Below are positions 10,859 to 17,470 of a stretch of 34,850 nt of DNA, piece by piece. The translations under genes and the position numbers were made by a program. The notes below the pieces were generated by a model. That model made no database searches and was not told where the DNA came from. It saw nothing but the letters and a program-made list of their open reading frames with translations. Each line of letters begins with the position of its first letter. Within the stretch, counting starts at the first letter, position 1. This DNA is from Bacillota bacterium (lineage in GTDB: Bacteria; Bacillota; Clostridia; Clostridiales; Clostridiaceae). The DNA is taken from NCBI GenBank assembly GCA_021781655.1, contig JAJXWJ010000034.1, positions 1-34,850 on the forward strand. Reading direction: 5' to 3'.

Positions 10859-12497
10859 ACAGATTTTCAATCGTAGTTGTAAGTGGAGGAATAACCTGTT
10901 TCTTTCTTGATAAAATTCCTTCTGCATAAGCACAATTATCAATTAGGGTTACGTCAAAAGCTTTTGCAACAACTTCCTTATCTTGTCCAGCAGCAATTAG
11001 CTCAGAGCCTCCCTTTAGTATATCAGTTAATAGTAGCAATAAAAAATTAAAATTTTCACTATCTGCTTTTTTATTCATAAGTTCAAGCATTTCTGGTTTC
11101 ATTGGCATGAAGCCATCTATGTCCATTGTGTTAACTTGTGCTACACCAATTTTGAAATTTGAAAGAGAGAAGGTTTTATAGTCTTGATAAAATATTTCAC
11201 TGCATGATTTTCCTTCTAATGAAGTACCTGCCTTAAACAGTTCAGCAGCAAAATTTTCTGGAACTATATCACAAATTTCTGATAATCTTTTTACTATTTC
11301 TCTATCCTTTTGAGTTGTTGTAGGAGATCTAAACATTAAGGTGTCTGAAATTATTGCACCACATAAAAGTCCTGCTGCTTCTTTAGATGGTCTTATTCCA
11401 TTTTCAAAGAAAATAGAAGCTACTATTGTAGAAGAACTTCCAACAGGTTCATTTCTAAAATAAATAGGAGATCCAGTTTGAATGTCTGCTAATCTGTGAT
11501 GATCGATAATTTCAGTTATTTCTGCATCTTCTAGTCCTTCTACCGTTTGTGATTTTTCATTATGATCTACTAATATTAACTTCTTTTTTAACGCAGAAAT
11601 TAAATGATATCTAGAAATTCCACCAATAACTTTGCCTTCTTCATCAACAACTGGATAACTTCTATATCTTGTTTTTAACATAACGTCTTTAACATCTTCA
11701 ACATAGTCAAAGCTCTTAAAGCTAATTATATTTGATGTTGTCATTACATAGCTAATTGGAATGCTTTGAACTATAAGTCTTGCAGTTGTAAAAGAATCAA
11801 AAGGTGTTGAGATAATTGAGCAACCTTTTAGTTTTGCTTTTTCAATTATTTCTTCACTTATTGGATGATTTCCCGAAACTATCATAAGTGCAGCTTCAGC
11901 TTCTAGTATTGTATCTTGTGAATCCGTCCTGTCTCCAGTAATTACTATGTCGCCTTTATCGATGTGTTCTTCTGCACTGCTTGGTTGCATTGCTACAACA
12001 ACTATTTTACCAGGAAGTTTTGGTTCATCCTCTGCAAGGAAAATAGTTTTTGCCGCAAGTGTATCAATTATATTATTAATTCTTGTTTTTGATTTAGATA
12101 AAATGTGATTATCCCAAATATCCATGTAAGTATTAATTAAATTTGAAACAGAAGCAAGACCTATTAGTTTACCATTAGCATCAACTACAGATAAAGTTTT
12201 AACGTTGTTCTTGCTCATTATTTCCCAAGCCATTTTTAAAGAAACGTCTGGAGAAATTGGAGATATGCTATCGAAAGTCAAATCGGAAACTTGTGCTTTC
12301 ATTGTAACCTTAAGTTGTGGCTCCTTAACACCAAAATAATTAAGGATAAATTTTGTTTCTCTACTTAATTCACCTTGTCTAAGTGGTATTGCATTTACAT
12401 CTGAAACTTTATTTTTATATTCTGCATAAGCAACTGCGGCACAAATCGAGTCTGAATCTGGATTTTTGTGACCAGTTATGTAAATTGTCTCTTTCAT
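10857..12497 (-). CDS. ppaC: Manganese-dependent inorganic pyrophosphatase with CBS-DRTGG regulatory insert
   Basis: A family II pyrophosphatase that hydrolyses cytosolic PPi. The N-terminal DHH domain has HKNPDSDS (H10, D14, D16), and later DHN at 311-313 and DHH at 332-334 complete the metal site; the C-terminal DHHA2 domain ends with the substrate-binding SRKKQ motif. Between about residues 70 and 305 is a regulatory insert: CBS (70-125), DRTGG-like domain (about 135-245) and a second CBS (250-305). At 546 residues it is about 240 longer than the plain enzyme, as in the known clostridial CBS-PPase, where AMP/ADP inhibit and ATP or diadenosine polyphosphates activate. Start ATG follows an AGGAGG site. 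Confidence 0.95.
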   Translation of the reverse strand: MKETIYITGHKNPDSDSICAAVAYAEYKNKVSDVNAIPLRQGELSRETKFILNYFGVKEPQLKVTMKAQVSDLTFDSISPISPDVSLKMAWEIMSKNNVKTLSVVDANGKLIGLASVSNLINTYMDIWDNHILSKSKTRINNIIDTLAAKTIFLAEDEPKLPGKIVVVAMQPSSAEEHIDKGDIVITGDRTDSQDTILEAEAALMIVSGNHPISEEIIEKAKLKGCSIISTPFDSFTTARLIVQSIPISYVMTTSNIISFKSFDYVEDVKDVMLKTRYRSYPVVDEEGKVIGGISRYHLISALKKKLILVDHNEKSQTVEGLEDAEITEIIDHHRLADIQTGSPIYFRNEPVGSSSTIVASIFFENGIRPSKEAAGLLCGAIISDTLMFRSPTTTQKDREIVKRLSEICDIVPENFAAELFKAGTSLEGKSCSEIFYQDYKTFSLSNFKIGVAQVNTMDIDGFMPMKPEMLELMNKKADSENFNFLLLLLTDILKGGSELIAAGQDKEVVAKAFDVTLIDNCAYAEGILSRKKQVIPPLTTTIENL

Positions 12498-16689: not shown

Positions 16690-16793
16690 GAAAGAGTTCA
16701 ATACATGAATTTATTTTAACTTTACTGCATTTGTTTTTTTATTAATCCATTCCGTTACACTTTATTTGATCTAAATATAATACATAAAAAATA

Positions 16794-16838
16794 AAAGGGA
16801 TTAAATCTTTATAATTAAAAATTTAATCCCTTTCTATT
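16794..16838. terminator. Terminator-like hairpin after cfa
   Basis: A perfect 13-bp stem (16794-16806 with 16821-16833, AAAGGGATTAAAT and its complement) has a 14-base loop and is followed by CTATTTTC. It ends the cfa transcript about 105 bases after the stop. It could also stop transcripts of the - strand gene at 17072-17470 after they pass the 96-bp repeats. Confidence 0.7.
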
Positions 16839-16864
16839 TTCTAAGTTAAGAATATTGACGGACG

Positions 16865-17067
16865 AAACCCCTAGTAGAGTGTAGGAGTAAAATTAGGCTC
16901 ACGTCACCATCTATATAGAGTGATTAATTATAGTTTATGAGGAAACATGGGCTAAAGCCCAAACCCCTAGTAGAGTATAGGAGTAAAATTAAGTTCACGT
17001 CACCATCTTTTGAGAGTGATTAATTATAGTTCATGAGGAAACATGGGCTAAAGCCCAAACCCCTAGT
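16865..17067. repeat. Tandem 96-bp repeat (two full copies plus 11 bp), candidate structured RNA
   Basis: Copy 1 is 16865-16960, copy 2 is 16961-17056, and the first 11 bases (AAACCCCTAGT) recur at 17057-17067. The copies differ at 7 of 96 positions. Each unit can fold into CCTA/TAGG (unit 6-9 with 18-21), a TCAC/GTGA plus TCT/AGA hairpin (40-59) and a GGGCT/AGCCC hairpin (85-96). Three of the seven differences fall in the four-base loop of the middle hairpin, which suggests that pairing is conserved. There is no coding potential. The gap 16690-17071 contains only this and the cfa terminator. Identity unknown; a transposon-end or guide-RNA scaffold relic and an independent ncRNA are both possible. 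Confidence 0.75.
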
Positions 17068-17071
17068 TGGT

Positions 17072-17470
17072 TTACCTAAATTTTTGAACCTGTTTCATTT
17101 GTTTTAGCTGATCTGCATCAAGTGGGATGAGTTCTTTTTTTGTAGTGAAATTTATTATGTTTAAAACTTCTATGGTATCCTTAACTTTACCACCCTTTAA
17201 TCCTTGAATAGAAACTGAGTTTCCTTGATTAACTGCAATGCAAGTAGGTTTTTTAAAAAACTTTTTAGCTTCGTAAATACATTTTACAACTGCTTTGCTT
17301 CTTTCAGGTTTTATAATAATTGAAACTATTAATTTATGATAAATAAAAAAAACAGTTTTTTCAGTAATTTTAACTGACAAAACACTTCCTTGAACACCTG
17401 TCATTCTATCTTTATTTTTATCAAACCACATTTCTTGATTTTTCTTTAAAATTTTATCCTTTAACCCCAT
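17072..17470 (-). CDS. Unrecognised small cytosolic protein
   Basis: A 132-residue, lysine-rich protein that I do not recognise. The N-terminus MGLKDKILKKNQEMWFDKNK looks helical; residues 25-55 (GSVLSVKITEKTVFFIYHKL) and 75-110 alternate hydrophobic and polar residues as beta strands do, and the C-terminus (DADQLKQMKQVQKF) is helical. No signal peptide, clear membrane segment or cysteine motif is seen. The pattern could suit a small beta-barrel or PH-like fold, but that is a guess. It has a good promoter and an AGGAG site, so it is probably a real gene. It is transcribed toward the 96-bp repeats, which begin five bases beyond its stop. Confidence 0.75.
   Translation of the reverse strand: MGLKDKILKKNQEMWFDKNKDRMTGVQGSVLSVKITEKTVFFIYHKLIVSIIIKPERSKAVVKCIYEAKKFFKKPTCIAVNQGNSVSIQGLKGGKVKDTIEVLNIINFTTKKELIPLDADQLKQMKQVQKFR

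Follow-up and report, generated by a model that had tools for sequence, protein, structure and literature searches.

A tandem array behind a small gene

The window analysed here, i.e. the whole 34,850-nucleotide stretch of contig JAJXWJ010000034.1 from a Bacillota bacterium of the Clostridiaceae (assembly GCA_021781655.1), carries a tandem array between cfa and a small gene of 132 amino acids. It consists of two direct 96-bp copies at 16865-16960 and 16961-17056 (window numbering, forward strand), which are 93% identical with 7 differences (TRF score 357), and the 11-bp start of a third copy at 17057-17067. Repeat finding thus bears out the anatomy given in a preliminary description made from the sequence alone, and the three differences which it placed in the loop of a TCACTCT/AGA..GTGA hairpin are indeed present. 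The same description had left the strand undecided and a non-coding RNA possible. The strand is now settled: since arrays of this kind read with the gene whose stop codon precedes them, the array belongs on the minus strand, downstream of the 132-aa gene, for which a Pfam search gave no match; nothing, however, shows the element acting as an RNA. Read in this direction, the locus comprises the following features.

17072-17470, minus strand: anchor gene of 132 aa (from the ORF list), with its stop codon TAA at 17074-17072, 9 nt before the core
17070-17073, minus strand: flank tetranucleotide AAAC, overlapping the stop codon; putative insertion target, with AAAC, AATC or ACAC at the same position elsewhere
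16971-17066, minus strand: unit 1 (5'-most, beside the stop codon), 96 nt, made up of CTAG, core and spacer
17045-17056, minus strand: core hairpin GGGC-TTTA-GCCC of unit 1
17000-17019, minus strand: TCAC..GTGA inverted repeat of unit 1 (the hairpin of the preliminary description), conserved in sequence within the source genome, without covariation
16875-16970, minus strand: unit 2, 96 nt, 93% identical to unit 1
16949-16960, minus strand: core hairpin GGGC-TTTA-GCCC of unit 2
16904-16923, minus strand: TCAC..GTGA inverted repeat of unit 2
16865-16874, minus strand: truncated third copy at the array end, of which only CTAGGGGTTT is left
16787-16840, no strand assigned: AT-rich inverted repeat resembling a terminator, situated between cfa and the array and outside the element (inverted-pair search)

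Incomplete or altered last (3'-most) copies are frequent and occur at several other loci as well. Folding of the array somewhat beats that of shuffled sequence on both strands (z of -3.1 for plus and -2.2 for minus).

Core, spacers and distribution of the family

The array is one locus of a family of short direct repeats that are non-coding and dispersed. A BLASTN search for dispersed copies, proposed as a check in the preliminary description, found many of them: at E<=1 the 96-bp unit has 29 matches in the source genome, the weakest of which are doubtful, a recurrence far above chance. Arrays are present on contigs C46 (the window), C106, C99, C88, C60, C167 and C155, alongside single and partial copies. 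An exact core pattern, GGTTTGGGC-N2-6-GCCCATG, occurs 26 times in the source genome (G000), 39 times in C. hydrogenum (G162), 19 times in C. guangxiense (G161), four times in G096 and once in G001, so that 5 of 206 family genomes and 5 of 225 genomes of the order carry it; the reversed control pattern was found in one genome, once. Such exact patterns miss diverged copies, and the 6 of 206 family genomes matched by BLAST with the whole unit were scored for at most four candidates each, which makes these counts floors. The source genome is the only species of its genus among the genomes compared. Among 84,980 named genomes, a stricter exact pattern recovered 30 stretches, 28 from C. hydrogenum, one from C. 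guangxiense and one from a deltaproteobacterial MAG, the last of which is probably a chance match. A phage or plasmid origin was rejected, as blastn found no match to the repeat in the plasmid and phage collections and viral contigs held no exact core.

In the direction of the upstream gene, the parts of a copy follow in this order: the flank AAAC, AATC or ACAC, about 4-6 nt, GGGG-TTT-GGGC, 2-6 nt of loop, GCCC-ATG, some 5 nt, TC-n-TGAAC (or a variant thereof) and a spacer. The nucleotides before GGGG vary among loci (CTAG, CTGG, ATGG, CGCG, ATCG) and are usually constant inside an array, and units fall into two length classes of 58-63 bp or 92-98 bp. Between loci only the core of about 36 nt (GGGGTTTGGGC-loop-GCCCATG-n-TC-n-TGAAC) is conserved, with identities over the first 38 nt of 0.88 in the source genome, 0.81 in C. 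guangxiense and 0.93 in C. hydrogenum. The spacers are specific to their locus. Their mean identity between loci is 0.60, 0.48 and 0.73 in these three genomes, with single pairs up to 0.93, and within a locus it is 0.96 (n=6 pairs), 0.97 (n=3) and 1.00 (n=1), i.e. 10 within-locus pairs in all. Because spacers are near-identical inside a locus and divergent between loci, the arrays probably grow locally, by duplication after dispersal.

An important question is whether the hairpins are maintained as structures. The preliminary description had taken the unchanged TCAC/GTGA stem as a sign of selection for RNA shape. In an alignment of 15 units of the source genome (drawn from 22 rows by dropping duplicates, IS-cut copies and partial last copies), however, the TCAC/GTGA+TCT/AGA stem has undergone no compensatory change, 13 of 105 cells are unpaired and shuffles do as well. 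Because of these missing double changes and unpaired cells, this second stem appears to be conserved as sequence rather than as shape, and we rejected it as a selected structure. Two tandem copies with loop changes, it should be cautioned, are no evidence for RNA selection. The GGGCT/AGCCC stem, which the same description had listed as kept, fared better. Among 71 distinct cores, 65 have GGGC/GCCC, 4 have GGGT/ACCC, one has GGGC/ACCC (at an IS junction) and one GGGC/GTCC, in a search whose regular expression demanded GGG[CT] and [AG][CT]CC, so that other stem breaks could not appear. The C-G to U-A change, one compensatory pair, is seen in 3 of 24 chosen cores, an alignment that was hand-picked with the GGGT/ACCC rows included on purpose and whose shuffle figures are therefore biased. 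The core palindrome thus seems to be retained, be it as DNA or as RNA.

An Rfam scan of the window gave nothing at gathering score, in agreement with the earlier failure to match any riboswitch, and permissive scans of the array region and five related loci produced only low-scoring matches to unrelated families; with no Rfam match at gathering score, known RNA families (riboswitches, sRNAs, ribozymes) were rejected. By title and the start of the abstract, no paper among the matches listed describes the repeat. In our reading, the repeat defines a new family of STAR-like, non-autonomous mobile hairpins, undescribed among the papers listed and in Rfam.

Stop codons and putative insertion sites

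Copies of the family are over-represented at stop codons. In 22 of 40 5'-most copies, 9 of 23 in the source genome and 13 of 17 in C. guangxiense, the core (GGGTTTGGGC) is preceded at 0-9 nt by a stop codon on its own strand, counting stops of ORFs of at least 50 codons in the stretches read rather than in whole genomes. Counted in this tally are the copies L163 -1155 and -1809, both in a duplicated gene, and L162 -174, which follows an ORF of 53 codons; an initial scan gave 22 of 39 (9 of 22 in the source genome), to which the exact core C167:39041, with its nearest stop 15 nt away, was added. As a background, AAAC sites from -9 to +3 of a stop make up 3 of 39 intergenic or near-stop AAAC sites in the window, 14 of 803 at C. 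hydrogenum loci and 15 of 594 at orthologue loci, a range of 2-8% (3/38 and 18/795 in an earlier version of this null), where the controls are window and locus sequence rather than whole genomes and use an ORF threshold of 80 aa against the 50 codons of the test. The binomial P for 22 of 40 is <=8.9e-15; for the source genome by itself the signal is weaker, 9 of 23 giving P 2.8e-5 with the window as background.

Eighteen of the 40 copies lie away from stops. Six are inside a larger repeat (C15, C52, C54, C78, C91, C167), three are divergent (C104 and, twice, C90), three are separated from a true 5' flank by an IS, the end of a contig or a gap in the sequence (L053, L056, the second of L155), two lie antisense and directly next to the ribosome-binding site of a divergently oriented gene (L057, L150), and the remaining four are elsewhere (L149, L156 and two at L158). 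The larger repeat (GCACCTTTGGGG...) encloses core copies in the source genome at C15, C52:73072, C54, C78, C91:16537 and C167:39041 (L143-L147, L260), three of which adjoin TTGACAGTTGACAATGG-type minisatellites. On C. guangxiense contig C1 (L163, 1050-1250), two facing copies fill the entire gap between convergent genes, each starting at the TAA of one gene, and the end of the second gene together with its copy recurs further on.

Comparison with orthologous genes bears on the question of insertion. For six C. guangxiense anchor genes, 18 orthologues from G160, C. hydrogenum and G163 were compared: in 15 the gene end is no more than one codon away from the same point, in the other three it comes 5, 5 and 9 codons later, and none of the 18 carries an array. 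Arrays are likewise absent from all orthologues compared for the source-genome anchor genes SigG (10), RlmI (7) and SpoVAE (8). The RlmI orthologues have terminal residues of the same type, those of SpoVAE end near the same residue, and those of SigG end in KYV, KYI or a close variant. SigG itself ends in KYV-N, with AAC TAA at the junction; its protein is one residue longer, and the flank AAAC is not clearly host-coded there. At three loci the flank is host-coded, namely in GTA ATC of RlmI, in GCAAAC and in GATATACAC, the latter two each also present in one orthologue. A fuzzy core search in the fetched stretches of 44 orthologue loci (43 plus one aconitase, an orthologue that was not judged because its gene end does not align) gave two weak, chance-like matches and no array.

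In C. hydrogenum, copies are mostly situated inside another, abundant palindromic repeat of the host, which allows empty and filled versions to be compared among the matches listed: AAGGAT-GATTTACCTTTCC-TTGCGTCAGG versus AAGGAT-(ACACATACTAGGGG...AATAAAC)-TTGCGTCAGG and, in a second context, ...CCGC-TTTGCTACAG versus ...AATAATC-TTTGCTACAG. Filled sites are without 13 nt that are found in empty ones, and insertion there was therefore not clean.

Two other kinds of repetitive DNA were encountered alongside the family. At L059-L088, C. hydrogenum has an abundant palindromic repeat of about 250 bp with outer arms of TTCACAATT-type or AGTACAGAGT-type tandem motifs, and arm types match and are complementary in the majority of the copies read, as though the arms had been mutually corrected. 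In the source genome, an IS has two kinds of end, each with GCTTGATGGCTATGGG, and at the ends of five contigs (C60, C57, C167, C91 and C99; L055, L056, L054, L049 and L053) it continues into the GGGC/GCCC core hairpin, three of these ends being of one type and two of the other, i.e. by at least three insertions; two more of its ends, on C69 and C88, are located at GGGTCACTCCC. Apparently this IS targets the core palindrome, much as some insertion sequences target REPs, a use of REPs described in PMC2817692.

Candidate mechanism, alternatives and known repeat systems

We consider it probable that the family represents a dispersed, non-autonomous hairpin element that is inserted at AAAC-like sites and grows in tandem in place. 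The core of about 36 nt would become inserted 3' of an AAAC-like tetranucleotide, often at a stop codon and in the orientation of the gene, with the copies arising as insertions made by a trans-acting mover. Replication slippage or unequal recombination may then multiply the core plus a spacer of 20-60 nt into a tandem array, yielding units of 58-63 bp or 92-98 bp. Behind a stop codon and in the orientation of the gene, the core would be transcribed behind that gene; most likely, the element is chiefly selfish and influences the mRNA 3' end at most as a side effect.

As to the mover, Y1 transposase searches at E<=0.001 gave three matches in the source genome, two partial ones in C. guangxiense, three in G163, three in G096 and none in C. 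hydrogenum; one of those in the source genome is a fragment near a copy on C32, and one C. guangxiense partial lies about 80 bp from an intact core. TnpB is matched three times in the source genome and 12 times in G096, with no match at E<=0.001 in C. guangxiense, C. hydrogenum, G160 or G163. Among 726 ORFs of at least 70 codons around copies, no transposase-like gene recurs, as judged by reading clusters from the ORF starts and in a repetition without identity filter, and an autonomous copy with a recurring gene of its own was rejected on this ground. These searches yield no candidate mover. Nor does an inverted pair join the array ends at the window locus, i.e. terminal inverted repeats of the MITE kind were not found there. 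Integron attC sites, whose core site GCCCAAAC presumably resembles, were dropped on inspection, since the order of the half-sites does not fit.

The preliminary description had pointed to IS200/IS605 right ends and TnpB guide-RNA scaffolds, with which the repeat presumably shares a hairpin near a short conserved flank. Because C. hydrogenum has neither a TnpB nor a Y1 transposase match, both readings are disfavoured, and these systems also differ from the present one in that no transposase or TnpB is linked to the repeat here. A scaffold relic, suggested by GC-rich hairpins within an AT-rich gap, is barely worth entertaining: neither C. guangxiense nor C. hydrogenum has a TnpB match, the source genome's three tnpB genes lie on contigs (C85, C165, C143) without an exact core and have no core in the surrounding 2.9-3.7 kb, and no transposon gene recurs beside copies. 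Single-strand ends of the REP or IS200/IS605 type, with AAAC as cleavage site, GTTT at the hairpin foot as guide and a Y1 transposase as mover, would fit the succession of tetranucleotide, short linker, GTTT and hairpin, a geometry we take to be like that of IS605 ends, as well as the Y1 matches in the source genome, C. guangxiense and G096, two of which are the fragments near copies. Yet this explanation is quite improbable, as C. hydrogenum, the genome richest in exact cores, has no Y1 match, and nine other Y1 loci read have no such hairpin within about 1.5 kb. Moreover, the flank varies between AAAC, ACAC and AATC while GTTT stays constant, on which ground AAAC/GTTT pairing as a guide was rejected, and arrays are direct, with facing pairs of copies seen only at L163, L152 and L158. 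REPs, as portrayed in PMC2817692, are similarly short extragenic hairpins with a head sequence, e.g. GTAGGGTGGGCTTtAGCCCACC of H. influenzae, but alternate in orientation within BIMEs, and their RAYTs are Y1-type tyrosine transposases.

A different view would be that of a functional 3'-UTR RNA element, i.e. hairpin arrays kept behind stop codons because the transcribed RNA stabilizes or regulates the mRNA. The sense orientation directly behind the stop in 22 of 40 copies, the conservation of the core across species and the replacement of C-G by U-A in its stem are all consistent with this. We nevertheless think it unlikely, given that the anchor genes are unrelated (SigG, RlmI, SpoVAE, GlgB-like and others, as named from sequence), that their orthologues do without arrays, that the second hairpin lacks covariation and that no Rfam family matches. 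With the non-autonomous mobile element as the preferred reading, it is conceivable, if on the whole rather doubtful, that we are dealing with a class of mobile DNA whose unrecognised machinery, linked to neither Y1 nor TnpB, is directed to the ends of reading frames. Such elements would insert 3' of AAAC-like sites where translation stops, for instance into DNA exposed behind the last ribosome, leaving host proteins intact and being transcribed with the gene, and STAR elements would be their staphylococcal counterpart.

Purves et al. (PMC3532100) asked whether STAR elements exist outside staphylococci and urged that other species be searched; according to these authors, the function and origin of the elements are not known, nor is the way in which they spread. 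Several traits which their paper ascribes to STAR recur in the present family: short GC-rich direct repeats in intergenic regions of an AT-rich genome with recurring spacers, one to seven motifs per sequenced locus in STAR with spacers that are distinct for each locus and near-identical inside it (here found in 10 within-locus pairs), a distinct last or anchor spacer (in STAR at gapR), and genomic locations that differ in each species. STAR motifs on S. aureus-associated contigs are spaced by 55-59, with one gap of 165, near the 58-63-bp class seen here; the Clostridiaceae family has the 92-98-bp class in addition. Among unannotated records filed as Staphylococcus phage, OR844990, OR844993 and OR844997 (L252-L256) carry STAR arrays and are probably host contigs.

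The core, in contrast, is unrelated. The 14-bp STAR consensus T(G/A/T)TGTTG(G/T)GGCCC(C/A) is absent from the array, and its one match in the window, with 2 mismatches at 12311, compares with 0.74 expected by chance. The STAR start signature GTGGGACAGAAATGAT is missing at the array starts read, where AAAC-like flanks are found instead. Stop anchoring of STAR elements is at most weak, with a stop (ORF of at least 60 codons) within 15 nt in 2 of 10 signature-plus-motif rows from S. aureus-associated contigs, two of these rows being only 94 nt apart. STAR-like direct repeats have been known for years. The stop-codon anchor provides a concrete handle on how such repeats may choose their sites, or on why they are tolerated there, and the presence in Clostridiaceae of a family that matches in architecture but not in core suggests recurrence of this architecture.
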